Shown here: one piece after another, positions 31,884-64,000 of the stretch
How positions within the stretch are numbered: the first letter of the stretch is position 1
Layout: every line of letters starts with the position of its first letter
Translations under genes and position numbers: made by a program
Notes under the pieces: model-generated
Seen by the model: only the letters and a program-made list of their open reading frames with translations
What the model was told of the DNA's origin: nothing
The model's database searches: none
NCBI GenBank assembly: GCA_014526335.1
Contig: JACTAT010000037.1
Span: forward strand, 3,050,394-3,114,393
Direction: 5' to 3'
DNA from: Chrysaora quinquecirrha
Taxonomy: Eukaryota; Cnidaria; Scyphozoa; Semaeostomeae; Pelagiidae
DNA: 64,000 nucleotides

Positions 31884-32486
31884 TTTTTTTTTTTTTTTGA
31901 GCTAAGCACATGCCTAAGCTTGTTTAATTTTTCAATTTAACTCAACATATATACAAGTTAAAATAATTTAAATTAAATAGAAATTGAAATTGTTCATCTG
32001 AATGTTTACTGTGAAAGTGTTAATTGTTCATTGTTCAAGTGTTTGTAATTTAAATGCAAATTTAACTAAATTATTCTAAACTACAACTAACTATTCTTAA
32101 AACTTATGACTACAACAACAACAAAACTATAACTACAACTAATCTTAATAAATTACCTAATTAACTAATAATAAAACTACAACTAATGAAATTAATAAAT
32201 ACTTAACAACAATTTAAATTACCTAATTAAACTAACCTAAGCAAACCCAATACTATAAAATTCTAATGTTAAAACCAAATGAATAAACTACAACTAATTA
32301 AATACTTATTAACTACAATTGAAATTCCTAATTCTAAGTTAAAAAAATTCAAACGTTGAAACAAATAAATAAAAAATTAAATAAACGCAATAATAATTCA
32401 TAAAATAAAAGGAAAAACGGAAAAGTGAAGCAAGAAAAAATGGAGAGAAAAAAACAGAAATCATTGAAATGGAAACGAGGCAAGTC

Positions 32487-36291: not shown

Positions 36292-36401
36292 TCAGATTTA
36301 AGGTTTTGGGACACAATTCATCCAAATATAATGTTTAAGAAATTTTAAATGAAATAATTATAGGAAAATATAAGTATTTGATGTAATAGTTAATGTGTTC
36401 T

Positions 36402-38131
36402 TTATTTTTTTGTTTCTTCTTCTTCATGTTTCTCTTTTTGTCTTTGGATTCTTGAGTGGTCTGTTGAGATGATGATGATGATGATGATGCCATGGGTCTT
36501 TTCTTCTGAGAATGTGAATTGGTGAGTTGTGTTTGCATGGTGTTGAGGTTGGTTGTAGTGAGTTGAAACAGATTGTATGACTGGGTTTGATGATGCTTGT
36601 GTGATGGAGCGGAACAGAAAAGTGTGGATAATTTGTGGAGATAATTGTTTGCTGGGTTCGGTTGTAGTTGATTTAATGGTGGTGAAGTTGTTGGGGTTGA
36701 TCAAAGTTGGGGATGAAAGTGACGTTGCTTGGTGGAGGCAATGGAATTTGAGATGATTGTGGAAGAATTGATTGTGATTGTGACTGTGGATTTGAGATGC
36801 TGATGAAGTTGGAGTGGTCTGTGTCTGATATTGATGATTGAAATGATTGAGATGGCTTTGATGGTGTTTGTGGGAAATGGCTGGGGTCATCAGTCTGACT
36901 TCCACTGTGGGCGTCAAACTGTGTGATTGCTGTGTCAGAGTCATTGTCATCCTGTTGTTGTTGTTGTTGTTGCGTTGGCAAGGGCCTAAGCCTATACTTA
37001 GGCCCTGCTGGTCTGTCCTGTTCGTCTGTCTGCTGTCACTGTGTTGTTGTTGTTCTGTGATGGTAAGGGCCTAAGCCTATATGCAGGCAGTGGTCTGTCC
37101 AAGTCACTGTCATAGTCGGATAGTATAACTGTATCTCCGTCGAAGTCCATTGGTACTGTCATTGTCACTGTTCATGTTACTGTCATGTCACTGTCAGAAG
37201 TTTGTCGCCGTCCTGTATTGTGTGTTGTGTATCTGTCACCGTTGAGTCGTATGTCACAGTCAACGTAGTGGTGTCCATCGTCACCACAGTAGAAGCAGAG
37301 CGAAGGTCCCTGAGATTGCAGTTGATGGTTAGATGGAAGGTTGAATTGCAATGCATACATATTGGTTGACGTCCTCGGAATGAAATCAAGATTTTGTGGC
37401 CTGAGATGATGATGAATGGTGGAAGTGGGTTTTCTGGGTCTGGATAGATGGTAACTAGACGTTTGCCAGTGGCGATGGATGGAAATTCTTGGTATTTTGA
37501 TTCCAGATGTTTTGAATTTTGCCATGAGGTGAAAGTTCTTCATAAATTTGAAGATTGGAGATGTCTGGGTGGCAAATGGAATGGTGATGAGGGTTGGTCG
37601 TTGAACGAATTGGAGTGATTGGTAATGGATGTGCTGGCTGAGATGGGAGGAATATGGATTTGGCTACGAGGACGTCAACCAAGGATGAATGATGATAATA
37701 TGGCATTCCAATTTTGATGGCCTTGTCTTTGATGGCATTCTTTGTAGATGTGTGATGGCACATGGGTTGTTTAGAGATTTGTGGATGGTTGTAATGATTT
37801 CAAGTATGAGACACTGATGGATTTGTGAAGAATTTGATGCCACGATGGGCAATACTGGAATTAGGTTGTTGTTGCGCTGTATTTTTAATTTATTTGCAGC
37901 TGTGAAATCATTACCTTCAGGTCCCTGGATTGAACCGAAGACTTGTGATCGATCTTGTTCTTGTTCTTGGTCTTAGTCTTGCGCATGCGTTCTTCTGGAT
38001 TGAGATGTTGTTGCCAATTTTCTTCTTCTTCAACCAAACTATTGTGGGAAGCGTTGTCTTCTTCATCCATAATGTCACTCCAACTTTTATTACTTCTTTT
38101 ATCTTCATTACCTATTACCTGACGGGTCCAT
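36402..38131 (-). pseudogene. Family B ORF1, copy B4
   Basis: The start at 38131 reads MDPSGN; the first codons overlap the U1-complementary 12-mer. The order is acidic N-terminus, RRM-like region (near 37560-37620), first CCHC knuckle (CMHCNSTFHLTINC, about 37340), second knuckle (CFYCGDDGHHYVDC), then Gln-rich and Asp/Ser-rich tracts with the PAGPKYRLRP motif and a Lys-rich end. Frameshifts split it near 37890, 37750, 37540, 37180 and 36950. It presumably encoded the RNA-binding partner of ORF2. Confidence 0.8.
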
Positions 38132-38158
38132 GTTAAGACACTTCTTCCCGTCAGGTAA
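38115..38158 (-). repeat. U1-5'-end / ORF1 inverted repeat (copy B4)
   Basis: Arms at 38115-38126 (ORF1 side) and 38147-38158 (U1 nt 5-16) are perfectly complementary over 12 bp. The ORF1 AUG lies in the 20-nt loop. Confidence 0.9.
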
Positions 38159-38162
38159 GTAT
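38143..38162 (-). pseudogene. U1 snRNA 5' fragment (nt 1-21) upstream of LINE B4
   Basis: Same junction (GGGAAGA, then element) and same one-G deletion as the fragment at 28787. Confidence 0.9.
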
Positions 38163-39559: not shown

Positions 39560-40348
39560 TTTTTTTTTTTTTTTGAGCTAGGCACATGCCTACGCCCGTT
39601 TAATTTTATCAATAAACTCAACATATTTACAACTTAAAATAATTTTAATTAGATAGAAATTGAAATCGTTTTTTGAATGTTCATCGTATATTCATTGCTC
39701 ATTTATTCATTTTTGAATTGTTCATTTCTAATTTCAAAATTAAACTAAATTATTCTAAACTACATTAAACTACAACCAAAAACTATTCTAATAAACTACA
39801 ACAACAACTATAACTACAATTAATCTTAATATATTACCTACTTAACTAATGATAAAACTACAACTAATGAGATTAATAAAATACTTAACAACAATTTAAA
39901 TTACCTAATTAAACTAACCTAAGCAAACCCAATACTTTAAAATCTAATGTTAAAACCAAATGAGTAAACTACAACTAATTAAATACTTATTAAACTACAA
40001 TTGGAATTCCCTAATTCAAAGTTAAAAAAATTCAAACGATGCAACAAATTAATGAACAATTTAATAAACGCAATTTTCAGTTTTCGATTCTCAAGGGATG
40101 CAAGGACATGATTCATTTTAATTGGATGTAAGTAACATTTCAATATTGAGGCACTATTTCAAAGTCTTGGAAAATGGAAAGTAGATTTTATGGACCCATT
40201 GACATTGATACTAAGTAGGGAAGGCATTGACATTTAAGGTTGTGGGGCATAATTCATTTGTTAAGGAATTTATTTAATTATGAAAAATTATTGAAAATTA
40301 AAGAGAAAAAAGAAACAAAAAAGGATGAGTGTCAATATTTGCTGCGTG

Positions 40349-40910
40349 TTATTTTTGTGCTTTTCTTCTGTGATTTCCTTTGTCTATCAGTTCCTGGTAT
40401 GTCTTTTGAGAAGATGATGATGATGATGATGCCATTCGTCTTTTGTGCTGGGAATGTGTTGGTTGTGGTTGGGGTCTTGAGGTTGGTTGAGTGAGTGAAG
40501 AATCAGATGTTATGACTGGTGATGGTGTTTGTGTTGATGGAGCGGAATAATGAAAGAGTGTTGAGGCAATAGCGGGAGTGATTGTGGGTTGTGTTGGCGT
40601 GATTTTAGTTAACTGGGGTGAATATTCTTGGGTTGGATTGGAGTTTGCGAATGAAGTAGATGAACGTTGTCTTCGTCGAGGCAATGGAATTGGAGAGCAT
40701 TGTGGAAGAATGGATTGGGAATTGCATTGTTGGGGGACTGGAGATGTTGGTGAAGTTGGAATTGTGGTGTCTGATTTGGATGATTCTAATGATTGAGTTG
40801 GTTTGGATGGCGTTGTGTGGGAAATGGAACTGGGGTCATCAGTCTGACTTCCACTGCAGGCGTCAAACTGTGTTACGTCTTGGTCTTCTGTGTTAGAGTC
40901 ATTGTCATCC

Positions 40911-40941
<31 letters not shown>

Positions 40942-42026
40942 GCGTTTGCAAGGGCCTAAGCCTATACTTAGGCCCTGCTGGTCTGTCCTGTTGATCTGTC
41001 TCGCTGTCACTGTGTTGTTGTTGTTGCTGTTCTGTGGATAAGGGCCTAAGTCTCTTAGGCAGTGGCCTGTCCAAGTCACTGTCATAGTTGGAAAGTATAA
41101 CTGTGTCACTGTTGTTGTCACTGTTACGTGTTGTATTGTGTGTTGTGTATCTGTCACCGTTTAGTCTAATGTCACAGTCAACGTAGTTGTGGCCGTCGTC
41201 TCCACAGTAGAAGCAGAGCTTCAGACCCCTAAGATTGCAGTTGATGGTGAGGTGAAGGGTTGAATTACAATGCATGCAGATTGGTTGACGTCCTCGATAT
41301 GAAATTAAGATTTTGTGGCCTGAGATGACAATGAATGGGGGCAGTGGATTTTCTGGGTTGGGATAAATGGTACAGAGACGTTTTCCAGTGGAGATGGATG
41401 GAAATTCTTGATATTTTGGTGCCAGATGTTGATTATTCTGCCGTGAGGGTGGAGTTGTTCATAGATTTGTGAATTTGAGATGTCTGGTGTGGCAAATGGA
41501 ATGGTGATGAGGGTTGGTCTGGAACGAATTGGTGTGATGGGTAATGGATGCTCTGGCTGTGAGGGTAGAAATATGGATTTGGAGAGGAGGACGTCAACCA
41601 AGGATGAATGGGATAGTATTGCATTCCAGTTTTGGTATCCTGGCTTAGATGGCATTCTTTGAAGGTGTGTGATGGCTGTAGGGTTGTTCAGTGATTTTGA
41701 ATGTTAGTGATGATTTCAGAATGTGAGGTGCTTGATTTTGTAAAGAATTTGATGCCACATTGAGATATTGAGTCGTAACTTCTTGTTGTTGTTGAATTTG
41801 ATGTCTTAAGTTTATCTGCAAATGTTTTACCTGATGAATTCTTTGATGAAGCTGAGATGTTGGACATATTTTCATCTTCTTGATGCGATTGTGGTTTGTT
41901 AGATCCCGCATGCGCGTCTTCTTTATCATGTTGAGCATGCGTTTCTTCTTCTTCAACGATAGAGCTCCAATCTTTCTGAGTATCCATGATGTTGTCTGTT
42001 GCTGTACTATTACCTGACGGGTCCAT
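40349..42026 (-). pseudogene. Family B ORF1, copy Bc
   Basis: Starts at 42026 with MDPSGNSTATDN. An acidic N-terminal part with a FADKLKTS motif is followed by the RRM-like TLITIPFATPDISN and knuckles CMHCNSTLHLTINC and CFYCGDDGHNYVDC. Two poly-Gln tracts (11-12 Gln at about 40908-40945), PAGPKYRLRPL and a basic end complete it. Frames break near 41690, 41410 and 41320; from 41275 to the stop it is open. The few breaks suggest recent activity, perhaps mobilised with ORF2 supplied by other copies. Confidence 0.8.
40908..40946 (-). repeat. (CAA)n poly-glutamine tract in ORF1 (copy Bc)
   Basis: A run of GTT on the plus strand, CAA on the coding strand, giving about 12 Gln. The equivalent tract in copy Bd (44780-44811) is about two codons shorter and those in B2 and B4 are shorter still. 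Confidence 0.9.
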
Positions 42027-42053
42027 GTTGACACACTTCTTCCCGTCAGGTAA
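42010..42053 (-). repeat. U1-5'-end / ORF1 inverted repeat (copy Bc)
   Basis: A perfect 12-bp inverted repeat: 42010-42021 in ORF1 and 42042-42053 in the U1 fragment. Confidence 0.9.
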
Positions 42054-43449: not shown

Positions 43450-44780
43450 TTTTTTTTTTTTTTTGAGCTAGGCACATGCCTACGCCCGTTTAATTTTATC
43501 AATAAACTCAACATATTTACAATTTAAAATAATTTAAATTAAATAATTAAACTACAACCAAAATCTATTCTAATAAACTACAACAACAACTATAACTACA
43601 ATTAATCTTAATATATTACCTACTTAACTAATGATAAAACTACAACTAATGAAATTAAGAAAATACTTAACAACAATTTAAATTACCTAATTAAACTAAC
43701 CTAAGCAAACCCAATACTATAAAATCTAATGTTAAAACCAAATGAATAAACTACAACTAATTAAATACTTATTAAACTAATTCAAAGTTAAAAAAATTCA
43801 AACGTTGAAACAAATTAATGAACAATTTAATAAACGCAATACAAAATTCTACTGTTCTATAAGGATGGATGGACGGGAAGAGGCAAAAAGAGAAAATTAA
43901 TGAAAACATGGAAACGAGGCAAGTCTCATGGGATGTTGATTTTCAGTTTTCGATTCTCAAGGGATGCTAGGACATGATTCATTTTAATTGGATGTAAGTA
44001 ACATTTCAATATTGAGGCACTATTTCAAAGTCTTGGAAAATCGAAAGTAGATTTTATGGACCCATTGACATTGATACGAAGTAGGGAAGGCATTGAAATT
44101 TAGGGTTGTGGGGCAAAATTCATTTGTTAAGTAATTTATTTAATTATGAAAAATTATTGAAAATTAAAGAGAAAAAAGAAACAAAAAAGGATGAGTGTCA
44201 ATATTTGCTGCGTGTTATTTTTTGTGCTTTTTCTTCTGTGATTTCCCTTTGTCTATCAGTTCCTGGTATGTCTTTTGAGAAGATGATGATGATGATGATG
44301 CCATTCGTCTTTTGTGCTGGGAATGTGTTGGTTGTGGTTGGGGTGTTGAGGTTGGTTGAGTGAGTGAAGAATCAGATGTGATGACTGGTGATGATGTTTG
44401 TGTTGATGGAGCGGAATAATGAAAGAGTGTGGAGGCAATAGCGGGAGTGATTGGTGGGTTGTGTTGGCGTGATTTGAGTTAACTGGGGTGAATATTCTTG
44501 GGTTGGATTGGAGTTTGCGAATGAAGTAGATGAACGTTGTCTTCGTCGAGGCAATGGAATTGGAGAGCATTGTGGAAGAATGGATTGGGAGTTGCATTGT
44601 TGGGTGACTGGAGATGTTGGTGAAGTTGGAATTGTGGTGTCTGATTTGGATGATTCTAATGATTGAGTTGGTTTGGATGGCGTTGGGTGGGAAATGGAAC
44701 TGGGGTCATCAGTCTGACTTCCACTGCAGGCGTCAAACTGTGTTACGTCTTGGTCTTCTGTGTTAGAGTCATTGTCATCC

Positions 44781-44812
<32 letters not shown>

Positions 44813-45908
44813 CGTTGGCAAGGGCCTAAGCCTATACTTAGGCCCTGCTGGTCTGTCCTGTTGATCTGTCTCGCTGTCACTGTGTTGTTGTTGTTGCTGT
44901 TCTGTGGATAAGGGCCTAAGTCTCTTAGGCAGTGGCCTGTCCAAGTCACTGTCATAGTTGGAAAGTATAACTGTGTCACTGTTGTTGTCACTGTTACGTA
45001 TTGTATTGTGTGTTGTGTATCTGTCACCGTTTAGTCTAATGTCACAGTCAACGTAGTTGTGGCCGTCGTCTCCACAGTAGAAGCAGAGCTTCAGACCCCT
45101 AAGATTGCAGTTGATGGTGAGGTGAAGGGTTGAATTACAATGCATGCAGATTGGTTGACGTCCTCGATATGAAATTAAGATTTTGTGGCCTGAGATGACA
45201 ATGAATGGGGCAGTGGATTTTCTGGGTTGGGATAAATGGTACAGAGACGTTTTCCAGTGGAGATGGATGGAAATTCTTGATATTTTTGGTGCCAGATGTT
45301 GATTATTCTGCCGTGAGGGTGGAGTTGTTCATAGATTTGTGAATTTGAGATGTCTGGTGTGGCAAATGGAATGGTGATGAGGGTTGGTCTGGAACGAATT
45401 GGTGTGATGGGTAATGGATGCTCTGGCTGTGAGGGTAGAAATATGGATTTGGAGAGGAGGACGTCAACCAAGGATGAATGGGATAGTATTGCATTCCAGT
45501 TTTGGTATCCTGGCTTAGATGGCATTCTTTGAAGGTGTGTGATGGCTGTAGGGTTGTTCAGTGATTTTTGAATGTTAGTGATGATTTCAGAATGTGAGGT
45601 GCTTGATTTTGTAAAGAATTTGATGCCACATTGAGATATTGAGTCGTAACTTCTTGTTGTTGTTGAATTTGATGTCTTAAGTTTATCTGCAAATGTTTTA
45701 CCTGATGAATTCTTTGATGAAGCTGAGATGTTGGACATATTTTCATCTTCTTGATGCGATTGTGGTTTGTTAGATCCCGCATGCGCGTCTTCTTTATCAT
45801 GTTGAGCATGCGTTTCTTCTTCTTCAACGATAGAGCTCCAATCTTTCTGAGTATCCATGATGTTGTCTGTTGCTGTACTATTACCTGACGGGTCCATGTT
45901 GACACACT
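43450..45908 (-). mobile_element. ORF1-only family B derivative, copy Bd
   Basis: A sister of Bc with the same patchwork ORF2 remnant (43950-44092) and the same U1 junctions, nearly identical through ORF1. It retains the GGAAACGAGGCAAG block lost from Bc. Sharing of the deletions shows either one deleted source that moved twice or duplication of the whole unit by unequal exchange. Confidence 0.88.
44215..45897 (-). pseudogene. Family B ORF1, copy Bd
   Basis: Start at 45897 (MDPSGNSTATDNIMDTQKDW). The first 240 codons are open and include the RRM-like block; a one-base loss near 45210 then shifts the frame. The knuckle and poly-Gln half (45145-44372) is open, and a further shift lies near 44470. 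The in-frame tail ends in a Lys-rich DKGKSQKKKHKK before TAA. It is closer to intact than ORF1 of Bc. Confidence 0.82.
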
Positions 45909-47183: not shown

Positions 47184-47185
47184 AA

Positions 47186-47221
<36 letters not shown>

Positions 47222-47347
47222 ATTGTACGGTCGAGTTACCAACGTTTGCGGTAATCGCAGGGTCAGCCAAACCGAACTGCAATGGAAAGGCCTCGCCCTG
47301 GAAGAATCTCCTTGTTGATCAAGATGTCTTCCCCGTCAGGTAAGTAT
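47184..47347 (-). ncRNA. U1: Intact U1 snRNA
   Basis: 164 nt, the usual U1 length. The 5' end ATACTTACCTG pairs with 5' splice sites. Stem-loop sequences (CCAGGGCGAGGCC, CCATTGCAGTTCGG), an Sm-type site (AATTTCTGG) and the terminal GTTCGCGC stem are all in place. The LINE target TTGATCAACAAGG is uninterrupted. U1 directs the first step of 5' splice-site recognition in the nucleus. A single G is missing in CAGGGTCAGCC compared with the copy at 48599. Confidence 0.96.
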
Positions 47348-48598: not shown

Positions 48599-48600
48599 AA

Positions 48601-48636
<36 letters not shown>

Positions 48637-48762
48637 ATTGTACGGTCGAGTTACCAACGTTTGCGGTAATCGCAGGGGTCAGCCAAACCGAACTGCAATG
48701 GAAAGGCCTCGCCCTGGAAGAATCTCCTTGTTGATCAAGATGTCTTCCCGTCAGGTAAGTAT
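48599..48762 (-). ncRNA. U1: Intact U1 snRNA
   Basis: The second uninterrupted U1 copy, about 164 nt. It has CAGGGGTCAGCC complete but three G in GACGGGAAGAC, the same one-G variant seen in several LINE-interrupted copies. The integration site is intact. Confidence 0.95.
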
Positions 48763-48922: not shown

Positions 48923-49422
48923 NNNNNNNNNNNNNNNNNNNNNNNNNNNNNNNNNNNNNNNNNNNNNNNNNNNNNNNNNNNNNNNNNNNNNNNNNNNNNN
49001 NNNNNNNNNNNNNNNNNNNNNNNNNNNNNNNNNNNNNNNNNNNNNNNNNNNNNNNNNNNNNNNNNNNNNNNNNNNNNNNNNNNNNNNNNNNNNNNNNNNN
49101 NNNNNNNNNNNNNNNNNNNNNNNNNNNNNNNNNNNNNNNNNNNNNNNNNNNNNNNNNNNNNNNNNNNNNNNNNNNNNNNNNNNNNNNNNNNNNNNNNNNN
49201 NNNNNNNNNNNNNNNNNNNNNNNNNNNNNNNNNNNNNNNNNNNNNNNNNNNNNNNNNNNNNNNNNNNNNNNNNNNNNNNNNNNNNNNNNNNNNNNNNNNN
49301 NNNNNNNNNNNNNNNNNNNNNNNNNNNNNNNNNNNNNNNNNNNNNNNNNNNNNNNNNNNNNNNNNNNNNNNNNNNNNNNNNNNNNNNNNNNNNNNNNNNN
49401 NNNNNNNNNNNNNNNNNNNNNN
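48923..49422. other. Assembly gap (500 N)
   Basis: Minus-strand array before, plus-strand LINE and array after, so the strand switches across unknown sequence. Confidence 0.99.
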
Positions 49423-51113: not shown

Positions 51114-51151
51114 ATACTTACCTGACGGGGAAGACATCTTGATCAACAAGG
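51114..51151 (+). pseudogene. U1 snRNA 5' fragment (nt 1-38) upstream of LINE A1
   Basis: ATACTTACCTGACGGGGAAG through to ACAAGG. Its last 13 nt (51139-51151, TTGATCAACAAGG) recur at 57232-57244 on the far side of the element. Confidence 0.95.
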
Positions 51152-51315
51152 TCACGCGATTTTTCGCTCTTCCCCTTTTCTCGCTTTTCTAGCTTAAAAG
51201 TGTCAGAAAACGATCAAATCTTGTTTATAAATATTGATAAAGTTTCTATAAAGTCATTTAAAGACTTTTGGAATCTAATTTCAGTTATCCTTTGGAATTA
51301 CTCTCATTTTTGGAT

Positions 51316-52536
51316 ATGGCATCAAACACGGAAACAACAATATGGGGAGATTTGATTGAAGATCAACCTGCTGAAAACCAACCTAAGAAGCTTTCCATTG
51401 CTGAGAAACTCAAGGGGTCTGATGCACGGATGCTACCTGGTGATGTGGCTGCTCGTGGAGCGAAATTCGAAACCCAAGATGGTATAAATTTTAAAGAAGT
51501 TATTACTTTTTTTCAAAACAAATTTCAAGATCATAATGCAGTCCAACAACTCATGCCTTTGTCGTCCATGCCCGGACGTCAAAGATGGAATATAATCTTT
51601 GCTAAGCCCAATATGGTTGACAATGTAATTGAAAATATGGTTAAATTCCCCTCAATGACCAAAGAAGAAGTAGGAGTTACCTTCACCCCTGTCAAACGTA
51701 GAGCTACGCTCATCACAATCCCAGACGCAACTCCAGACATATCAGACAATGAGATTCGAAGGGAGTTGGAAAAATTTGGAACTGTTCTCCGAATTTGGAA
51801 ACAGACATGGGATGGCTTCCCTCATGTTTTTAACGGAAAACGGCTGGTGACGATGTTCCCCTCAATGGCGCAAGATTTACCACCCTATCTTCTCATAAAG
51901 AACAAGAAAATTTCACTATCCTTCAAAGGCAAACCCGTCTTCTGTAACATCTGCATGAAGGATACACATAGGACGGGGGATTGCCCCTCGAAGGATATGA
52001 AACAATGCTACCTTTGCGGAGCAACTGATCACCAAAAGAGCAAGTGCGAAAAATTCCAAGTTATTCGCCGCCCTAGAGGTCGAGTACTACCAAACGAAAT
52101 TGTCGATTCTGACCAAGAAGAATTCGATGCAGAGGGAATTACCGAGCCCTGGCAAGAAACGCCCGAAGTGCAAGAGGAGCCAGAGAAGGAGGAGGGAACA
52201 CCCCCCCATGAAGTCTCTGCGAACGATGGCGATAATGAAAAAACAGAAATTGAACAGGCTGATAAGAAAGCTGTAGAAAAACCTGAAAAACCAAAGAAAA
52301 AGGAAAAAACAGAGCAACAGAGACCACAGACAGAAAATTCAGAGCCCACAGAACGACAACAAGATGACAGTGAACCAGAGGAAGATGATGCATCCCAAGT
52401 AAAAATCAAGGCAGAGAAAGATATTCAAAGATATGAACCCTTTAAAAAAGCAAAGAAAAGAGCCATCCACCTCACTCCTGAGAAAAAAGCGCAACCGAAG
52501 ATCACACCAGGTAAAAGAAATAAACAATCAAAGTAA
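51316..52536 (+). CDS. Family A ORF1 (RRM-like and CCHC RNA-binding protein), intact
   Basis: 406 codons from MASNTETTIWGD; this start is chosen because the A2 and A3 copies share MASN...WGD. Residues 1-120 resemble the matching part of A2 (GDVAARGAKFET, VQQLMPLSS). An RRM-like stretch lies at about 128-170 (TLITIPDATPDISDNEI...VLRIWKQ). Two CCHC knuckles follow: CNICMKDTHRTGDC (about 209-222) and CYLCGATDHQKSKC (about 231-244). The last 150 residues are a Glu- and Lys-rich, probably disordered tail. ORF1 proteins of Tx1/L1-group elements coat the element RNA and assist reverse transcription. ORF2 starts about 50 bp downstream. Confidence 0.9.
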   Translation: MASNTETTIWGDLIEDQPAENQPKKLSIAEKLKGSDARMLPGDVAARGAKFETQDGINFKEVITFFQNKFQDHNAVQQLMPLSSMPGRQRWNIIFAKPNMVDNVIENMVKFPSMTKEEVGVTFTPVKRRATLITIPDATPDISDNEIRRELEKFGTVLRIWKQTWDGFPHVFNGKRLVTMFPSMAQDLPPYLLIKNKKISLSFKGKPVFCNICMKDTHRTGDCPSKDMKQCYLCGATDHQKSKCEKFQVIRRPRGRVLPNEIVDSDQEEFDAEGITEPWQETPEVQEEPEKEEGTPPHEVSANDGDNEKTEIEQADKKAVEKPEKPKKKEKTEQQRPQTENSEPTERQQDDSEPEEDDASQVKIKAEKDIQRYEPFKKAKKRAIHLTPEKKAQPKITPGKRNKQSK

Positions 52537-52586
52537 TATCCTAACCAATTATGATGCGTAGTCTTAAACCTTTTATTATTATCATG

Positions 52587-55500
52587 ATGACTTGTATTGC
52601 GAGTATAAATGTGAATGGGTTGAGAGACCCCCGTCGTCGTGACACAATTTTCCACCATCTTTTTGCTCAGAATTTTGACATTATTATGTTGCAAGAAACG
52701 CATTTAAATTCTACCGAGCTTGATAAAACCTTCGCAAATTGGAAAGGGAAATCCTTTCATTCTGTGTCAACAGACAACAGAAAGGGTGTCTCGATTTTAA
52801 TCTCTGATAAAATCAACACTACAATCCATTCACATTATGCCTGCAATACAGGTCATTATGTAATTATAGAACTCTCTGTTGACGACAATCGATTCATTCT
52901 TGCTAATATTTATGCCCCGACTGGAGGACAAGACGCCATTGTTCGTCGTAAAGATTTTCTTCGAAACCTTCAAAATGATTTGAACAAGTACCCACGTACT
53001 TTTCCTTTCATCGTTGGTGGTGATTTTAATTGCGTCTTAAATAATAATCTTGATAGATCGAATAACGTAACCTATGTAGATAGAAGTGCCCCAAATCTTA
53101 AACACTTCTCAAACGTCTTTAACTTAGAGGATATCTGGCGTACCAAGAATCCTACTAAAAAAGAATTTACTTATCGTAGCCCCCTAGGATCTTTTAGTAG
53201 ACTTGATAAATTCTATACTTCTCGAGAATTCCGCGATAAATTTTCTAAATGCCTTATCGAACCCTTTCCCCACTCCGATCATGATAAAATTATTTTAAAA
53301 CTCGACTTCTCTTGCATAAAACGCGGACCTGGATCTTGGATGTTAAATACCTCTACCTTGAAAGAACAATCCTTTCTCAACCTCATCAATGATTTCATAG
53401 ACACCTGGAAGGGCAAAAAGGGGGACTTTCACTCCTTGTCTGACTGGTGGGAGTACGGGAAATCTCGCATCCAATCAATTGCTAAAGAATACTCAGCTAA
53501 GCGTAAGAAAGAACACATGAAGAGAAAGTCCCAGTTATATAAAAAACTGCGCAACTCCAAACGCAAAGCCGAAACAACAGGGGACCCCAGATTTGTTACC
53601 CTCACAAAAACCATATCAGATGAGATAAAACGTATAGAAACCCAAGAAGCTGAAGCCGTGAAACTCCGCGCTAAAGCAAAATGGTCAGAGCAAGGAGAAC
53701 GAGTCACCAACTACTTCTGTTCGCTTGAAAAGAAACCGCAGGGTGACAGAACTATGAAGGCTATTAGAAATAGCCGAGGTATTATCGTTTCCCAACCCCA
53801 CGAAATCTTAGATTCTGTTAAGACATTCTATGAAGAGCTCTACACAGCGGAACCTACTGACGATAACTGCCAACAGGAACTTTTAGGTAAACTATCTCGA
53901 ACCCTTCCGAACGACAAGAAACAAGCCTGCGAGGGCAAAGTTACCCTTAAGGAAATATCGTTAGCGCTAAGCCAAATGGTGAACAATAAATCACCGGGCA
54001 CAGATGGCTTACCATACGAGTTTTATAAAATTTTCTGGAATAAAATCTCGAAAGATTTCTTAGCCGTTGTCAATGAATGCTTTGAAAATAAAAGTCTAAC
54101 CCCCTCGCAGCAAATGGCCTTGATTTCTTGCCTGTTAAAAAAGGGCGAGAGAGAGAAAATCGAAAATTGGCGACCTATAAGCCTGTTGAACTGCGACTAT
54201 AAAATCATTGCCAAAGTTATTTCTAATCGCCTTTCCTGTGTTCTACCTTGCATAGTGGCTGAAGATCAGACCTGTTCCATTCCGGGAAGGACTATTCTCT
54301 CTAACTGTCATGTTTTACGCGATTTAATCCAAATAAGTGAGGATGACAACCTCCCTGTGGGCTTACTTGCAATTGATCAAATGAAGGCTTTCGATAGAGT
54401 TAACTGGAACTTTCTCTTCAAAACCCTTGAAAAGTTGGTCTGGTTTTTAGTAGCTGGGTTAAACTGCTTTACACAGATATAAAAGCTCTGTTAAAGTCAA
54501 TGGCTATCTTTCAGACACTTTTAACCCTACCCGAGGGGTCAGACAGGGCTGTCCTCTTTCTGCCCTTCTCTATGTGATCATTGCTGAAGTTTTCGCAGAA
54601 AACATCAGGCAAGAACCAAAGATCAAAGGTATTACTGTTAACAAAACCGAATTTAAAATTGTACAATATGCCGATGACACGACTTTAATCCTCCAAGGAA
54701 ATCCCTCAATCCTTGCTTGTCAACAACACCTCACTGACTTTGAAAAAGCCACAGGTGCAAAAATAAATACAGACAAAAGTGAAGGCCTCTGGCTGGGAAG
54801 CTTTAAAAATAGAAATGATTCTCCGTTTGGTTTCGACTGGTCGAAAAAGTCTTTGAAAATCCTTGGAATCTTCTTTGGACTACATAATGTTTCTAAGCTA
54901 AACTGGGACTCTAAAATTTCGAAATTTCAAAAGACACTAAATCTTTGGAAAAACCGCGACCTCACATTTCGTGGTAAAGCTATTGTAGCAAATCAACTTG
55001 CTTCTTCTGTTTTACTTTACACTGCCACTATCTTTCCCATCCCTCAATGGGCTTTGAAAACCTTAAATGAGAGTCTGTGGGCCTTTCTTTTCAACGGCAA
55101 AAAGCCGCCAATCAAACATATCCAAGCAAAGCTTCCATACACTGATGGCGGCCTCAATTTTGTTGATATTGAAAAGAAAGCCCAAAGTCTCCATTTGTCT
55201 TGGCTAGCCAAACTGTTTGACAAAGAACAAACAGGAAAATGGAAAGTCTTATTCACTTATATTCTTGGGAAATACAAAGACCTTAATATTGGGCCTAATG
55301 TTTTAAAATGCTTTCTTAGTTCAAGGCAAATCAATAAACTGCCTTGTTTCTATAAATCGCTTTTGAAATCCTATCTAAACTTATGCAACAACAAAAGATC
55401 TAATCCAAATCCTGCTGTTGAAATCTTCAATGAACCATTGTTTGATAATTCTCTTATAGCTAAAGAAAAGCTCCCATTCGTACAGTCATGGGTCGATGCA

Positions 55501-56403
55501 GGGGTTACTCTGGTTCGAGACGTGACTTACGAGCTCTCCCCAGGATTTCTCCCGAGTCTTGCCCTTAAAGAACTCGTAGGAGATCGCTTTAGGAAAAATG
55601 ATCATGATACTATGCTCTCCCTTATACCCCCCGAGTATCGAGAAATTGTTCGGAATAACGCTGCACCCCCCGATCACTTTTCTGTAGACTTTAAGCTTCC
55701 TCTCACTGGATTGAATAAACCTATTTCGAAACTAACATCGAAAGACTTTTATCACTATCTTGTTGCTTCTACTCTCGATTTACCTTCTCAGAAATTCAGA
55801 CTGTTTTGGAATAACAAATTCGGCAATTTAGATTGGAAATTTATTTTCAAGTCAATTTTCTCTTGCGATATTGATCGAAAATCTTGCGATTTACAATGGA
55901 AGTTAATCCAGCTTGCCCTCCCGACAGCTGATAAACTTTCCAGACATAACATCATCGATAACCCGAATTGTTTACGTTGTCAAATAAACGTAGAGACTTC
56001 TATGCATCTCTTTGTTCGCTGCCCTTTAGTCCATGACCTTTGGCAAACAGTAATCCAATTGACTAAAGACCTGGATCTAAATGTAAACATTGATCTTAAC
56101 AACCTAGAATACTTTGTTGTTATTGGGTTTGCCTTAAATAAAACTACGCAAGCTTTGATTCCTGCTCTAACCGTTCGCGATATCGCACTCCGCTCTGTCT
56201 GGTCAACCCGAAATAAAATTGTCTTTGATGATGAAGTAAAAAGCCCCCTAGATATTTTTAAATCTAAATTAAGACGCAAAATTAAAGAACAATTTCATCT
56301 CTCTAAAGATTCAAATGCTGCCCTTTCCCTATTCAAAACCAACTGGTGCCGACACAATGTTTTAGCCTCAGTTGTAAATAATAACTTACATGTAAACATC
56401 TAA
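52587..56403 (+). pseudogene. Family A ORF2 (endonuclease/RT), one damaged region
   Basis: Starts MTCIASINVNGLRDPRRRD. The AP-like endonuclease occupies about 235 residues (SINVNG, LQETHLN, VGGDFNCVLN, RLDKFYTS, PHSDHDK). RT follows with NWRPISLLNCDYKIIAK, DQMKAFDRVNW, GVRQGCPLSALLY and YADD at 54667-54678. A C-terminal C-x2-C-x8-H-x4-C knuckle (CLRCQINVETSMHLFVRC) lies near 55970-56025, and the end is NNNLHVNI. Near 54437-54475 about 8 nt are missing relative to A2 (two small deletions), which shifts the frame inside the RT palm just before the GVRQG box. Otherwise it is open over about 1,270 codons. It would nick U1 and copy its RNA there. Confidence 0.9.
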
Positions 56404-57190
56404 AACATGCTTACTATTGCCTTAAACAACAACAACAATGTTAAAATCACTACATTTTGCGCGAGAAAACACTACTGCTGACCAACGGCACTCGTTGGTT
56501 ACCGCTTGCTTTCTGACCCGTGTGAATCAGAAAAACTCTCACTGAGCTCCGTTGTTATACATACACACGGCTCCTTATGACCCTGTTATAACCCCATCAA
56601 ATGCACACTTGATGCTCCTTATGGACATTAAGCAGAAAAGTTTTCCAAACCCCCGTAATAAATTCATGATGCTCCTTATAGGCACAATTTAAAATGTACT
56701 TAGTACCCTGTAATACATACTTGATGATCCTAATGGACATCTTGTTCAAATGTATTGTTGTAAATATTTGCATATTATAATATCGCTATGCTATTTTATC
56801 AATAATCAATAATTCTACCCTTACTTCTTTATATTTGGTATCATTATTAGTATTTAAATTCTTTACATTTCGAGCCTGAATACACATAAAGTAGCAGACC
56901 CCACTCAGTCTAGCACAGCTCGACTCCAAAATGAGGGGAAACAACAACAACAACAATGTCCACCCAGTTTCACTCAATTATCGATGTGTTTTCAAACTCG
57001 TTATGGATTAATTCAAGTTAATGCAATGTGACTGGCACAAATTATGCAATTTAAGTTTCATGAACACTGAAATCAAAATATAGAGAATTTCAAACAGTAT
57101 CCACTTTAAAATAATTTTTATTTTTGTAATTATTTTAGATTATTTTTTAGTTTAAATTTTTGTAAATATTTTTGATTTGGTAAATTAAAC
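56404..57190 (+). other. Family A 3' UTR
   Basis: Non-coding AT-rich sequence with several CTTGATGCTCCTTATGG-type direct repeats (near 56607, 56670 and 56727). It matches the sequence after ORF2 of A2 in part (63639-64000). Confidence 0.75.
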
Positions 57191-57213
57191 GGGTGCTGGC
57201 ATTCGCCAGACTC
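57191..57213 (+). other. 3'-terminal hairpin of family A
   Basis: GGGTGCTGGC-ATTC-GCCAGACTC: a CTGGC/GCCAG stem, a bulged G, then a GGGT/ACTC stem. Same layout as the family B hairpin although the bases differ. Confidence 0.65.
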
Positions 57214-57231
57214 AAACGAAGAAAAAAAAAA

Positions 57232-57333
57232 TTGATCAACAAGGAGATTCTTCCAGGGCGAGGCCTTTCCATTGCAGTTCGGTTTGGCTGACCCCTGCGA
57301 TTACCGCAAACGTTGGTAACTCGACCGTACAAT

Positions 57334-57369
<36 letters not shown>

Positions 57370-57371
57370 TT
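57232..57371 (+). pseudogene. U1 snRNA 3' portion (nt 26-164) downstream of LINE A1
   Basis: Starts with the second copy of the 13-bp duplication and continues as normal U1 to the end. Confidence 0.94.
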
Positions 57372-57804: not shown

Positions 57805-57924
57805 GCCTACGACCATACCACCATGAATATACCGGTTCTCGTCCGATCACCGCAGTCAAGCATGGTCGGGCCAGGTCAGTACCTGGATGGGTGACCGCCT
57901 GGGAACACCTGGTGTTGTAGGCTT
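57805..57924 (+). rRNA. 5S rRNA
   Basis: Complete 120-nt copy, TTTTT terminator downstream. Confidence 0.97.
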
Positions 57925-58080: not shown

Positions 58081-58267
58081 ATCGCTTCTCGGCCTTTTGG
58101 CTAAGATCAAGTGTAGTATCTGTTCTTATCAGCTTAATATCTGATATGCACCCAAGGGTGCTCAAATATTAAACTGATTTTTGGAATTGGTCCGTGGGTC
58201 TGAAGCTTGCTTCACCCCGGACACGGGTTGTCCTGGTATTGCAGTGCCGCCATGGATGGCCCACCCC
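58081..58267 (+). ncRNA. U2: U2 snRNA
   Basis: Complete 187-nt copy, no differences noticed from the 50535 copy. Confidence 0.96.
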
Positions 58268-58626
58268 CTCATCTTGAAGTGTAAAACAAGCAACACAGAA
58301 AAACCTTCTTCATCGTCACATCTCTTTCTGTCGTCATCGTCTTGCGGATGTCTTAGCCATCCTTCTCTCACATTGCACCGCATCAACATCATCAATTATT
58401 ATACAGGAAACAGCATTTGTTTTGCCTTATTAATTCCACCTTTCACCATCGCATAGCATTGGTGCTGAAAGTTCCAACCGCAACGAGTCTTACCAAATCT
58501 GTTCTCATCCTTTGCCGATCTCAACGGAATGCAAGTGCCAGCCTTTCACTTGTGGTCTGTTGCCAATGTACCACATTTGAAACGAGAAGTTCCTGAACGA
58601 CGCTCCCTCTGCAAGAAAAATCCTGC

Positions 58627-58650
58627 ATACTTACCTGACGGGGAAGACAT
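58627..58650 (+). pseudogene. U1 snRNA 5' fragment (nt 1-24/25) upstream of LINE A2
   Basis: U1 stops at GGGGAAGACAT and family A begins CACGCGATTTTT. One C is shared, so the break is after nucleotide 24 or 25, 13-14 nt earlier than in A1. Confidence 0.92.
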
Positions 58651-58778
58651 CACGCGATTTTTTTGCTCTTCCCTATTTGCTTATTTATTGCTCGAAAGTT
58701 ATTGTTTTCTTGCTCTTCGGAGTTCATAAAGTTTAGCAATTCAATTTGCACTTGTTATCCATTGGAAATACGACTATC

Positions 58779-60017
58779 ATGGCTTCAAATGTTCCAGAAA
58801 CAACGATTTGGGGAGATGCCATAGAGCCCTCAACACGGCCTAAGCCACATCTTAGCTTTGCGGAAAGATTAAAACGATCAAATGCAAAGATGTCTACAGG
58901 AGATTTAGCAGCAAGAGGAGCCAAATTTGAAACCCCAGACAACATTGATTTTAAGGAAATCATCACGTATTTTCAATCAAGATTTAAAGATCGCGATGCT
59001 GTTCAACAGCTTATGCCTTTATCATCTTTGCCTGGTAAACAACGTTGGAACGTCATTTTTTCAAAGCCCTCTTATGTTGACTCAGTCATAGACAACCTGG
59101 TCAAATTCCCGTCATCTCAAGAAAATGATATCGGTGTTACAGTCGTTCCTGTTCAGAGAAGAGCTCTGCTTATTACCATCCCAGATGCAACGCCTGATAT
59201 ATCTGACGATGAAATACGGGACTGCCTTTCGTATCATGGCACTGTTTTACGTATTTGGAAGCAGACATGGGAAGGCTTCCCCAATGTTTTTAACGGGAAA
59301 CGCCTCCTCACTATGTTTCCTTCTGGAGGACAAGACCTACCTCCTTTTATTAATATCCGCAATAAGAAAATCTCACTTTCCTTCAAAGGCAAACCAGTGT
59401 TTTGCAATATATGTATGAAGGATACCCACAGAACCGGGGAGTGCCCCTCTAAAAGCTTGAACTTAAAACATTGTTTTCTCTGCGGTTCCACCGATCACCG
59501 AAAGCAAGATTGTGAGAAATTTGTAGTGCTCAGACGTCCAAGGGGACGAAGAATGTCCAATGAAATTCAAGATTCCGACAATGAAACAGATGAAATAACA
59601 GCAGAAAATCTTGAAAACCCCTTCTTCCCAAAAGACCAACTACCGGTGACAGCTGAGACAGGAGAAAAGGATGCTAAGCCCAACAAAAACACACCACCCA
59701 CAATTAGAACAAATGAAACTCAAGATGAAGATGGTGAACAAACCCCCCCACCTTTAACCAGCACACACCCAACAACCAATAATCTGCCTTCAACAAAAAC
59801 CGAAAGAAATGGAACCCAAACCGAAGAAAACACACAAACCCCTCCACCTTCAATCAACGCACAACCAACAACAGATAATTTACTCCAGAAAAAAACCGAC
59901 GACCAAGGTGCTATACAGAACTATGCCCCCTTTAAGAAAGGGGTAAAATGCGGTATTCCCACCACTCCTGAGAAGAAAACAAAAACAAAGAAAACTCAAG
60001 GTAAATCAACAAAATGA
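58779..60017 (+). CDS. Family A ORF1, copy A2, intact
   Basis: 412 codons from MASNVPETTIWGD to KTQGKSTK. It shares with A1 the N-terminal AERL and GDLAARGAKFET segments, the RRM-like LLITIPDATPDISDDEI block (about residues 128-165), and knuckles CNICMKDTHRTGEC and CFLCGSTDHRKQDC. The C-terminal tail differs: it is rich in Thr, Pro and Gln with imperfect repeats around TQTPPPSINAQPTTDNL, and not Glu/Lys-rich as in A1. Tail divergence against a conserved core is usual for ORF1 proteins. Being open, it could still supply RNA-binding protein even though its own ORF2 is dead. Confidence 0.9.
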   Translation: MASNVPETTIWGDAIEPSTRPKPHLSFAERLKRSNAKMSTGDLAARGAKFETPDNIDFKEIITYFQSRFKDRDAVQQLMPLSSLPGKQRWNVIFSKPSYVDSVIDNLVKFPSSQENDIGVTVVPVQRRALLITIPDATPDISDDEIRDCLSYHGTVLRIWKQTWEGFPNVFNGKRLLTMFPSGGQDLPPFINIRNKKISLSFKGKPVFCNICMKDTHRTGECPSKSLNLKHCFLCGSTDHRKQDCEKFVVLRRPRGRRMSNEIQDSDNETDEITAENLENPFFPKDQLPVTAETGEKDAKPNKNTPPTIRTNETQDEDGEQTPPPLTSTHPTTNNLPSTKTERNGTQTEENTQTPPPSINAQPTTDNLLQKKTDDQGAIQNYAPFKKGVKCGIPTTPEKKTKTKKTQGKSTK

Positions 60018-60065
60018 ACACTAAATCTATCGTACTTTATACTTTTACCCCCTTTACAATTTATC

Positions 60066-63000
60066 ATGGCTTGTATTGCAAGTATAAACGTGAATGGGTT
60101 GCGAGACCCCCGTCGTCGTGACACGATTTTTCATCATTTATTTGCTAAAAACTTTGACATAATTATGTTGCAAGAAACGCATTTAAACTCCACTGAACTT
60201 GACAAAACCTTCGCAAATTGGAAAGGAAAAACCTTTCATTCCGTGTCAACAGACAACTGAAAGGGTGTCTCGATTTTAATCTCTGAAAAAATCAACACCA
60301 CAATTCATTCACATTATGCCTGCAATACAGGTCATTATGTAATTTTAGATCTCTCTGTTGACGATAATCGTTTTATTCTCGTTAATATTTATGCCCCGAC
60401 TGGAGGACCACACGCCATTGTTCGTCGTAAAGATTTTCTTAGAAACCTTCAAAATGATTTGAACAAGTACCCACGTACTTTTCCTTTCATCGTTGGCGGT
60501 GATTTTAATTGCGTTATCAACAATAACCTGGATAGATCTAATAAAGTTAACTATGTAGATAAGAGCACCCCAAATCTTAAACACTTCTTAAACGTTTTTA
60601 ACTTAGAAGATATCTGGCGTACCCAGAACCCTACTAAAAAAGAATTTACTTATCGCAGCCCCCTAGGATCCTTTAGCAGACTTGATAAATTCTATACCTC
60701 CCGCGAATTTCGCGATAAATTTTCTAAATGCTTTATTGATCCCTTTCCTTATTCTGATCATGACAAGATTATCTTAAAACTCGACTTCTCCTCTGTAAAA
60801 CGCGGACCCGGGTCCTGGATGCTAAACACTTCCATCCTAAAAGAACAGTCCTTCGTGGACCTCATCAATGATTTCATTGACTCCTGGAAGGGCGGAAAAG
60901 AGGACTTTCAATCCTTGTCTGACTGGTGGGAGTACGGTAAATCCCGTATCCAATCAATCGCGAAAGAATATTCCACCAAGCGCAAGAAGGAACACATGAA
61001 GAGAAAATCCCAACTATACAAAAAACTACGAAATTCTAAACGCAAATCCGAAACAACAGGGGACCCCAGATTTGTGAACCTAACTAAAACAATCTCAGAC
61101 GAAATAAAACGCATTGAAACCAAAGAAGCGGAGGCCACTAAGCTACGTTCTAAAGCCAAATGGTCAGAACAAGGTGAAAAAGTAACCCGTTATTTCTGTT
61201 CTCTTGAAAAGAAAAGACAAGGTGACCGAACCATGAGGGCGATTAGAGATAAACAAGGAACCATCGTAACAAAACCAGAAGAAATCCTAGAATCTGTTAA
61301 ATCCTTTTATGAAGAACTCTACACCACCGAACCTGTTGACGAAAACATTCAACAGAATCTTCTACAAAAGCGTTCTAAAACCCTTCCTGAGGACAAGAAA
61401 CAACTCTGTGAAGGAAAAATTACTAAGAAGGAAATTTCCTAGCCCTCAGTCAAATGGTGAATAATAAATCACCAGGTACTGATGGTTTACCCTATGAATT
61501 TTATAAACTATTCTGGAACAAACTGTCGGACTGTCTTCTAGACGTTATCAACGGATGTTTTGACAATAAGAGCCTAACCCCCTCGCAGAAAATCGCGCTT
61601 GTTTCTTGTCTGTTCAAGAAAGGTGAAAGAGAAAAAATCGAAAATTGGAGACCGATCAGTTTACTAAACTGCGACTATAAAATAATTGCCAAAGTTATCT
61701 CTAATCGTCTTTCACGGGTTCTCTCAACTATTATCTCTGAAGACCAGACCTGTTCTGTCCCAGGGCGAACGATCTTATCCAATTGCCATGTTTTGCGTGA
61801 TCTCATACAAATAAGCGAGGATCAAAATCTCCCCGTGGGCTTGCTTGCAATAGATCAGATGAAAGCTTTTGACAGAGTTAGTTGGGATTTTCTCTTTAAA
61901 ACCCTGGAAAAACTTAACTTTGGACCAGTTTTTATTAACTGGGTTAAACTGCTTTACACAGATATTAAAAGCTCTGTTAAAGTTAACGGTTATATTTCGG
62001 AAACCTTTTCGCCCTCCCGAGGGGTCCGACAGGGTTGTCCTCTTTCCGCACTTCTCTATGTTATCATTGCTGAGGTCTTTGCAGAAAACATCCGACAAGA
62101 TTCAAAGATTATAGGTATTTCTGTCAATAAAACCGAGTTTAAAATTGTGCAATATGCCGATGACACGACTTTAATCCTCCAAGGAAATCCCTCAATCCTT
62201 GCGTGTCAACAACATCTCTCTGACTTTGAAAAAGCCACAGGCGCAAAAATAAACACTGACAAAAGTGAAGGCCTCTGGCTAGGAAGTTTTAAAAATAGAA
62301 CTGATTCTCCTTTTGGTTTCGACTGGTCGAAAAAGTCGTTGAAAATACTTGGAATCTATTTTGGACTAGATAATGTTTCTCAGTTAAACTGGAACTGTAA
62401 AATCTCGAAATTTCAGAAGACACTCAACCTTTGCAAAAATCGCGATTTAACATTCCGCGGGAAAGCTGTTGTAGCAAATCAACTTGCTTGCTCTGTTTTG
62501 CTTTATACTGCCACTATCTTCCCCATCCCTCAATGGGCTCTGAAAACCTTGAATGAGAGTCTGTGGACTTTTCTTTTCAACGGCAAGAAGCCGCCGATCA
62601 AACGTATTCAAGCAAAGCTTCCATACGTTGACGGCGGCCTTAATTTTGTTGATATTGAAAAGAAAGCCCAAAGCCTCCAATTGTCGTTGTTAGCCAAGCT
62701 GTTTGACAAAGAACATAAAGGGAAATGGAAAGTTTTATTCAATCATTTTCTTGGGAAATACAAAGGGCTTAATATTGGGCCTAATGTTTTGAAATGTTTT
62801 CTGAACACAAGACAAATTAATAAATTGCCTTGTTTCTATAAATCGCTTTTGCAACCTTACCTAACCCTTTGTAATAACAAAAGATCTAATCCAAATCCTC
62901 TCGAAATTTTCAATGAACCTTTATTTGACAACACTCTTTTTTGCTAAGGACAAACTTCTATCCGTACAGTCATGGATCGATGCAGGGGTTACTCTTGTTC

Positions 63001-63638
63001 GAGACGTGACTTACGAACTCTCCCTCGGATTTCTCCCGAGTCTTGCCCTTCAAGAACTCGTAGGAGATAACTTCAGGAAAAAAGATCATGATAATATTCT
63101 CTCCTGTATACCCCCCGAATATCGGGACGTCGTGCGAAATAATGCTGCGCCCTCCCCGACAGCGGATAAACTTTCCAGACACAACATTATCGACAATCCG
63201 AATTGTCTCCGTTGTCAAACGAACAAAGAGACTTCTCTACACCTCTTTGTTCGTTGCCCTTTAGTCCATGACCTTTGGCTAACAGTAATCTCATTGATTA
63301 AAGATCTCGATCTAACTGTCAACATTGACCTTAACAACCTAGAATTCTTCGTTATAATTGGTTTTGCTCTACATAAAACCACACAAGCTTTAATTCCAGC
63401 TATAACTATTCGCGATATTGCACTCCGCTCTATCTGGTCAACGAGAAATAAAATTGTTTTCGATAACGAAGTAAATAACCCCTTAGATATTTTCAAATCC
63501 AAACTAAAACGTAAAATCAAAGATCAATTTAACCTCTCTAAAGATTCAAATGCCAACCTTTCCTTATTTAAAACCAACTGGTGTCGAAACAATGTTTTGG
63601 CTTCAGTTGTAAATAATAACTTACACTTAAACATTTAA
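60066..63638 (+). pseudogene. Family A ORF2, copy A2, broken
   Basis: Starts MACIASINVNGLRDPRRRD. A TGA at 60258 replaces AGA of A1 in the endonuclease. A one-base loss near 61440 shifts the frame before the RT, and an extra T near 62940 shifts it after. At about 63155 some 250 bp are deleted relative to A1, at a short CCC/GACAGC similarity. The RT core itself is well kept: NWRPISLLNCDYK, DQMKAFDRVSW, GVRQGCPLSALLY and YADD at about 62153-62164. The terminal knuckle CLRCQTNKETSLHLFVRC is present. Confidence 0.9.
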
Positions 63639-64000
63639 AGCCTCTATTGCTCTGAACAACAACAACAATGTTAAAATCACTGCATTTTGCGCGGGAAAAC
63701 ACTACCGCTGACCAAAGGAATCCTTTGTTCCATTTTGCTTTCAATCCCCTCACTTGTGAGAATCAGAAAACTCCTCACTCAACCCAGTTGTTAAGATTTG
63801 TACTTTAGTACCCTGTGATACATACTTGATGCTCCTTATGGCCATCTTGTTGAAATGTATCTCTGTATATTTTTGCTAGTTCCCATACCTCTATTTTATA
63901 GCTGTATCAATATCTAATGATTTTATCGCCATTCCATCATATTTAGTAGTTTTTAAATTTTTAATATTTCGAGCTTGAATATACATGAAGTAATAGATCG
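63639..64000 (+). other. Family A 3' UTR, copy A2, partial
   Basis: Non-coding sequence matching 56404-56900 with a shortened middle part. Runs off the window. Confidence 0.75.

Follow-up and report, generated by a model that had tools for sequence, protein, structure and literature searches.

AP-endonuclease LINEs with the U1 snRNA gene as their probable dedicated target in the snRNA arrays of Chrysaora quinquecirrha

A U1 Gene Split by a LINE

The window analysed here, a stretch of 64,000 nucleotides (nt) from Chrysaora quinquecirrha, lies in the 15.3-Mb contig C290 of a genome of 328 Mb and 740 contigs, and it holds tandem units of the U1 small nuclear RNA (snRNA), 5S rRNA and U2 snRNA genes, about 1.41 kb apart where they are uninterrupted. 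One of its U1 genes is interrupted between nt 25 and 26 by an insert of 6,080 bp (51152-57231) in the same orientation as U1, bracketed by a perfect 13-bp direct repeat, TTGATCAACAAGG, that corresponds to U1 nt 26-38. The initial annotation had described a U1 gene split by a long interspersed nuclear element (LINE) of about 6.08 kb, with a perfect 13-bp duplication and in the U1 orientation, and this is what is found at 51114-57370. The interrupted gene and its insert have the following features:

51114-51151, + strand: U1 snRNA gene nt 1-38 (5′ part), located by blastn with the U1 of 47185-47347
51139-51151, + strand: 5′ copy of the 13-bp target-site duplication (TSD) TTGATCAACAAGG, U1 nt 26-38, read from the sequence
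51152-57231, + strand: LINE of lineage A, both ends present, open reading frame 2 (ORF2) frameshifted
51168-51175, + strand: TCTTCCCC in the element head, complementary in the fold to U1 nt 15-22, GGGGAAGA, at the same joint
51316-52536, + strand: ORF1 (ATG at 51316, stop at 52534-52536), with two CCHC zinc-knuckle-like motifs seen by eye
52551-54482, + strand: ORF2 frame 1, apurinic/apyrimidinic (AP) endonuclease (PF03372) and first part of the reverse transcriptase (RT, PF00078), by Pfam; relative of LINE-1 ORF2p
54484-56403, + strand: ORF2 frame 2, remaining RT and zf-RVT (PF13966), by Pfam
57184-57213, + strand: ATTAAA (possible poly(A) signal) and 9-bp 3′ hairpin with one bulged nucleotide, from pair counts over 27 distinct tail cores
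57222-57231, + strand: A10 tail at the 3′ joint, read from the sequence
57232-57370, + strand: U1 snRNA gene nt 26-163 (3′ part), opening with the second TSD copy

Regarding its class, the element is, as judged by its domains, an L1-group retrotransposon of the non-long-terminal-repeat (non-LTR) type with an AP endonuclease: ORF2 combines this endonuclease with an RT, and the copy has a TSD and an A-rich 3′ joint. Human LINE-1 ORF2p is the top match to ORF2 among solved structures, and the phmmer value of ORF2 against LINE-1 ORF2p is 6.1e-54; the homologues listed carry no clade names, and in place of the "Tx1-like" of the initial annotation the placement given is the relation to L1 ORF2p. By Pfam, ORF2 has no endonuclease domain besides the AP type, hence none of the restriction-like type of Utopia and R2, and it has RT and AP endonuclease instead of the DDE transposase of Dada. 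ORF1 of this copy had no Pfam match in the domain scan. Since ORF2 is split across two frames, the copy is probably dead.

Site Specificity across the Genome

The counts that follow make it very probable that the insert belongs to a strongly site-specific group of AP-endonuclease non-LTR retrotransposons with U1 snRNA genes as their dedicated target. The window contains two complete U1 genes and eight U1 3′ parts in which nt 26 is the first U1 position behind foreign sequence; seven of the eight follow LINE tails with poly(A) (one of lineage A, six of lineage B), and one follows a degenerate end. In the window and 60 fetched loci together, 80 distinct U1 nt-26 sites were read, a sample in which intact array was mostly skipped, so that the ratio is no census. 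At 69 of them an A (13) or B (56) tail with poly(A) stands at the 25|26 joint, 68 joining exactly and one in which the first T is missing or altered, and 39 of these 69 tails are distinct; the remaining sites are one degenerate LINE end and ten uninterrupted genes (four called intact by the script and six of the seven rows it called "other", which hold a U1 with one G less). Genome-wide, a pattern for U1 nt 26-50 with at most two mismatches finds 257 sites, and uninterrupted reads across the 25|26 joint number 54 with at most one mismatch and 60 with at most three; by subtraction, without inspection of each site, about 200 of the 257 U1 3′ parts are interrupted.

The tails give the same picture. 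The B tail occurs 160 times in the genome at up to two mismatches (control, 0), and 99 of the first 100 listed, all exact, adjoin U1-derived sequence: 87 are followed by U1 as recognised by pattern, and 12 of the other 13 by a mutated U1. Exact strings of B tail, up to 30 nt and U1 number 94 genome-wide, against 0 for the reversed pattern; together with the eight window joints, this argues that the junction of U1 and LINE is no chance joint. For the A tail there are 56 occurrences (control, 1), all of which were read, and 54 adjoin U1-derived sequence, most of them with the joint at nt 26 or within 1-2 bases of it; in the second batch of this reading the script called 33 of 40, and L099, L105, L106, L111 and L112 were added by eye.

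As for the coding part, a search with the ORF2 protein, made without U1, scored the best 69 of 1153 candidates, and all 76 matches listed from these fall on contigs C290, C380, C324 and C620 only, which also carry U1-joined tails. On C290, 29 A-like ORF2 matches extend to the C-terminus; 25 of them are followed by an A tail at a distance of 662-816 bp, and 24 of these tails are at U1-derived sequence, the exception being L083. Nearly all copies thus lie at one target place. The initial annotation had proposed U1 as a dedicated target, which the tail counts bear out (B, 99 of 100 exact; A, 54 of 56); it had also named a majority of copies outside U1 as the result that would speak against this, and both these counts and the 24 of 25 A tails at U1 that follow A-like ORF2 copies are the opposite of that. 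One correction concerns number: two lineages share the target.

At locus L131 (C2:8745582, with tail L104), what is apparently a short copy of lineage A lies outside U1 between two copies of the direct repeat ATAAGATACTTTAT, which suggests a rare off-target insertion.

The snRNA Arrays of the Window

The other genes and insertions of the arrays in the window are the following:

57805-57923, + strand: 5S rRNA gene, tandem unit of the 51152-57231 insertion
58081-58269, + strand: U2 snRNA gene, same tandem unit
58627-58651, + strand: U1 nt 1-25 preceding the next lineage-A element
58652-64000, + strand: second lineage-A LINE (endonuclease and RT, EN+RT, 88% identical), extending past the window end
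12582-13433, − strand: lineage-A head and ORF1 after U1 nt 1-38 (13434-13471)
31884-38142, − strand: lineage-B LINE, tail at U1 nt 26 (31883), head at the U1 5′ part (38143-38162)
39560-42037, − strand: short lineage-B derivative in U1, ORF1 homology only, both ends
43450-45908, − strand: short lineage-B derivative in U1, ORF1 homology only, both ends
7074-11348, + strand: lineage-B LINE (ORF2 and tail) ending at U1 nt 26 (11349-11487, G28A)
23540-28786, − strand: lineage-B LINE, head at the U1 5′ part (28787-28806)
47185-47347, − strand: uninterrupted U1 gene (empty target)
48600-48762, − strand: uninterrupted U1 gene (empty target)

Downstream of the element that runs past the window end, the next A tail (locus L046) meets U1 nt 26. 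Short B copies with homology to ORF1 and none to ORF2, and with both ends in U1, were also seen at L009:84-2003 and L014:8246-9894; the short ORF1-only copies are possibly non-autonomous derivatives carried by the full elements.

Besides the LINEs, remains of a Pao-type LTR retrotransposon lie between snRNA units at 19717-20586 and 20825-21796 (PF05380; a neighbouring ORF has PF18701). Three runs of N, 500 bp each (11792-12291, 30102-30601 and 48923-49422), lie in or next to insertions and are probably scaffold gaps. Elsewhere in the genome, C179:1325925-1327262 (L157) holds a long open COX1 frame (code 4) in a nuclear contig, with 92% protein identity to Aurelia and Acromitus COX1, either a mitochondrial insertion or a misassembly; this identity makes a scyphozoan jellyfish the most likely host.

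Lineages A and B and Their Relatives

In EN+RT, lineages A and B are 45-59% identical to each other, B copies being 65-98% and A copies 79-97% identical among themselves. Two trees place them together. The first (59 rows, EN+RT) takes in the 19 of 26 element copies in which over 600 columns are filled, together with 40 of 120 homologous proteins (over 680 columns, after thinning at 85% identity), and in it A, B and protein P0001 form a clade with an SH-aLRT of 100. The second (43 rows, mainly RT) has 22 chosen proteins and leaves aside L021_A2, w_25k_B, L010_B, L016_B and copies with 300 filled columns or fewer; here A and B form a clade with P0001 and P0121-P0125 (support 100/99), and the outside proteins P0122 and P0124 nest within lineage B. 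P0124 is labelled as a Desulfobacterales metagenome-assembled genome (MAG), and both proteins are probably animal contamination in bins. A search of other genome contigs gave five distant loci, from MAG records of bacteria or archaea, and none was found in the viral contigs searched for relatives. Because A and B lie in one clade and use the same U1 site, a U1 habit with a single origin would predate the divergence of A from B.

The U2 genes of these U1-5S-U2 arrays also hold AP-endonuclease LINEs that are Keno-like and fall into two branches (L017:619, 6143-6167; L018:620, 6154-6178; L019:615; L022:6848; L027:6629; L028:6972-6996). Their 3′ joint stands before U2 nt 35, and the three 5′ joints read end at nt 25; in EN+RT they are 30-39% identical to A and B when rows with over 600 filled columns are compared (29-47% when all rows are included), and they branch apart with P0009 in both trees.

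The 3′ End and the Tandems of Lineage A

The hairpin of 9 bp with one bulged nucleotide that follows ATTAAA is common to A and B. Over the 27 distinct cores 93.4% of its cells are paired, a percentage reached by none of 500 shuffles, and slid versions of the hairpin have at most 53.7% paired.

At seven of the 56 A tails, in five places, the tail is followed by U1 nt 26-38 and then directly by an A-like head; these A-A tandems are L082, L088, L099, L105, L106, L114 and L126, the heads being seen by eye via the CTCTTCCC motif, and the 13-bp U1 spacer of L099 carries two changes. The 13-bp duplication restores U1 nt 1-38 upstream of an element, so a second element could insert there, which would produce such tandems. 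Since only the 13-bp spacer separates the two elements, recognition would need no U1 sequence 3′ of nt 38, and the tandems bound the smallest sequence recognised to within U1 nt 1-38. Unequal crossing-over between units would instead leave whole snRNA units between elements.

Four A tails on C290 (1991468, 1997405, 2003295 and 2009194) are spaced by 5.9 kb; the first is followed by U1 itself, and each of the last three by the 13-bp U1 spacer with an A-like head behind it.

The 5′ End of Lineage B

All 34 heads of lineage B that were read (14 and 20 in two batches; in the second, 19 were recognised by the script and one by eye, L156, whose U1 part has a deletion) join directly behind U1 nt 21 and lack nt 22-25, and the ATG of ORF1 lies about 12 nt past this joint. 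Genome-wide, 128 B heads with at most one mismatch and 75 exact joints were counted (control, 0 for each), not all of which were read. The heads hold a conserved 12-nt block, CCCGTCAGGTAA, that is the reverse complement of U1 nt 5-16: over 30 distinct heads 357 of 360 cells pair, 15 of the 18 changed cells still pair as G-U, and identity is 0.92 in the block vs 0.454 in the following 12 nt. None of 5000 letter shuffles gave the 12-nt match and, with the U1 part of one B copy held fixed, none of 500 shuffles of the element part folded equally low. The changes in this hairpin of U1 leader and block are mostly one-sided and preserve pairing; P-to-L and S-to-L changes in the block keep the pairing and not the amino acid, and are suggestive, although only suggestive, of a constraint at the RNA level. 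A ribozyme of the hepatitis delta virus (HDV) type, as in R2, was considered for the 5′ end and dropped, as one A head and one B head gave no Rfam match at E ≤ 1.

The 12-bp pairing and the constancy of the joint suggest, tentatively, that lineage-B RNA begins where U1 transcription begins. On a bolder reading, less likely than not, lineage B would have no promoter of its own, and U1 nt 1-21 would now serve the element by pairing, over 12 bp, with the anti-U1 block at the start of ORF1. The joint could instead come from a cut of the second strand at U1 nt 21|22, with a 4-bp target deletion and no U1-led transcript, an account with a real but less than even chance of being right. A fixed cut likewise yields a single joint, U1 5′-part variants (GGG or GGGG) recur in more than one B subfamily as if they derived from the target, and full-length R2 copies have small fixed target deletions; such a cut leaves unexplained the conserved block complementary to U1 nt 5-16, the loss of identity directly after it, and an ATG so close to the joint that there is scant room for a 5′ untranslated region or a promoter. 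Should the U1-led transcript be real, the borrowed hairpin would fix the 5′ joint of lineage B, and it might hide or capture the U1 sequence that pairs with splice sites, tying expression of the parasite to the disrupted splicing machinery.

Proposed Mechanism and Its Alternatives

Target-primed reverse transcription is the established mechanism for elements of this kind. On this model, ORF2p would nick the template strand of U1 between nt 25 and 26, and the freed 3′ end would prime cDNA synthesis on the poly(A) end of an element RNA held via the conserved 3′ hairpin. In lineage A, the other strand would be cut about 13 bp downstream, creating the duplication that rebuilds U1 nt 1-38 upstream of the new element and makes a further insertion possible. 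In lineage B, the RNA would come from the U1 promoter and its U1 leader would help to fix the 5′ joint, which is the least certain step. The logic of survival would be that of R2, as a multicopy RNA gene can withstand the loss of many copies.

Several observations weigh against a dedicated U1 target or against parts of this mechanism. U1 specificity is incomplete, as one B tail (L070, on C152) and two A tails (L083, on C290, and L104, on C2) lie outside U1, and three A joints in U1 are off position (L109 near nt 20, L111 and L112 near nt 36). Four of the 29 A-like ORF2 copies have no tail at up to two mismatches: one of them, L123, retains a worn tail at U1, and in the other three (L122, L124 and L125) no tail was seen within about 1.1 kb. 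The 5′ joints of lineage A fall at U1 nt 38 twice (window 51151 and 13434), at about nt 25 (58651) and at about nt 30 (L027), and the TSD is shorter or absent in other copies, so the 13-bp stagger is not universal. Pairing of the lineage-A head with U1 is weak: 3 of 500 shuffles fold as low as the TCTTCCCC head at 51168-51175, and 125 of 5000 letter shuffles also give an 8-nt match. Two-sided changes in the 3′ hairpin affect three pairs, a number that 285 of 500 shuffles reach, and they mostly divide A from B, so they may represent few events. Covariation in the U1-leader hairpin of lineage B is not above shuffles either (412 of 500 as high), because the U1 side hardly varies and most changes are at two positions. 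Finally, copies may have been duplicated as units of the array, and independent insertions would then be fewer than copies.

Carried to its end, this last point would make the whole association with U1 a product of array amplification, with few insertions multiplied by tandem duplication and no targeting. Near-identical neighbours (L028_B and L028_B2, 98%; L021_A and L021_A2, 97%) and the regular spacing of the four A tails on C290 speak for it; however, it is very unlikely, as the same joint recurs in two lineages as divergent as A and B and among B copies as different as 65% identity, the 69 tails read are so diverse, the A-A tandems lie over a 13-bp spacer, and the listed ORF2 matches, from the best-scoring candidates, are all on contigs with U1-joined tails. 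Amplification adds copies and leaves the near-exclusive site unexplained.

That the repeats, SINE-like (short interspersed nuclear element) or LINE-like, own a piece of U1 rather than insert into the gene is barely credible: B heads open with U1 nt 1-21 and are hard to distinguish by the head alone, but the tails in the window are followed by the rest of U1, spacer, 5S and U2 (with a similar order in the fetched loci), the usual U2-U1 spacer precedes the head in the window, and the same arrays hold uninterrupted U1 genes. B heads as SINE-like U1 heads were dropped for the intact snRNA spacer upstream.

Comparison with Known Systems

According to the accessible text of PMC4640811 (2015), the elements reported from snRNA genes are only Keno and Utopia, in U2, together with Dada-U1 and Dada-U6; U1 is named as a Dada target in the parts seen of PMC3706591 and PMC8869645, the former giving Dada as a DNA transposon. 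The initial annotation had cited Keshi as a U2-specific family; in the accessible text of PMC4640811 that name has 0 occurrences, and Keno is given as the AP-endonuclease family of U2. No U1-specific non-LTR element was found in the full-text literature searched, a scope that excludes Repbase, Dfam and most subscription papers, and the term "U1 snRNA" was not found in the accessible portions of PMC10886601 and PMC5911963. By that literature, as far as its text was accessible, these are site-specific LINEs with a new target, U1, and an unusual 5′ end, for which a Repbase entry could exist. With them, U1 would join the target list of non-LTR retrotransposons, with two lineages maintained at one place. 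As about four fifths of U1 3′ parts are interrupted, and U2 is also attacked in the same arrays, the system would let one test in nature the number of spliceosomal RNA genes that an animal can do without, the way in which the choice of target shifts between snRNA genes and the minimal sequence that an AP-type endonuclease needs.

As described in the available part of PMC4640811, Keno resembles the U1 elements in its AP endonuclease, its precise 3′ joint in a multicopy snRNA gene and its presence in animals including hydra; however, its target is U2, whereas lineages A and B target U1 nt 25|26 and, save for the three outside tails, all their joints read lie in U1. Utopia, from the same source text, is similar in having several lineages in one snRNA array, with disrupted genes outnumbering intact ones, and differs in its restriction-like endonuclease and U2 target. 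Dada-U1, as far as PMC3706591 could be seen, shares U1 as a dedicated target but uses a DDE transposase, is known from zebrafish and has a proposed 6-bp duplication, GCGAAT/GCGAAC, and therefore another place in U1. With the Tx1/L1 group the elements have in common AP endonuclease, RT, zf-RVT, zinc-knuckle-like motifs in ORF1 and kinship to human L1 ORF2p. Finally, R2 is likewise site-specific in a tandem RNA gene, the 28S rDNA, and in the accessible text of PMC3774820 it is co-transcribed with its host gene and has a self-cleaving 5′ RNA; it differs in its restriction-like endonuclease and its target, and the two joints searched here had no HDV-like match. The U1-led 5′ structure of lineage B, if confirmed, would be the AP-endonuclease counterpart of the use that R2 makes of host sequence at its 5′ end.

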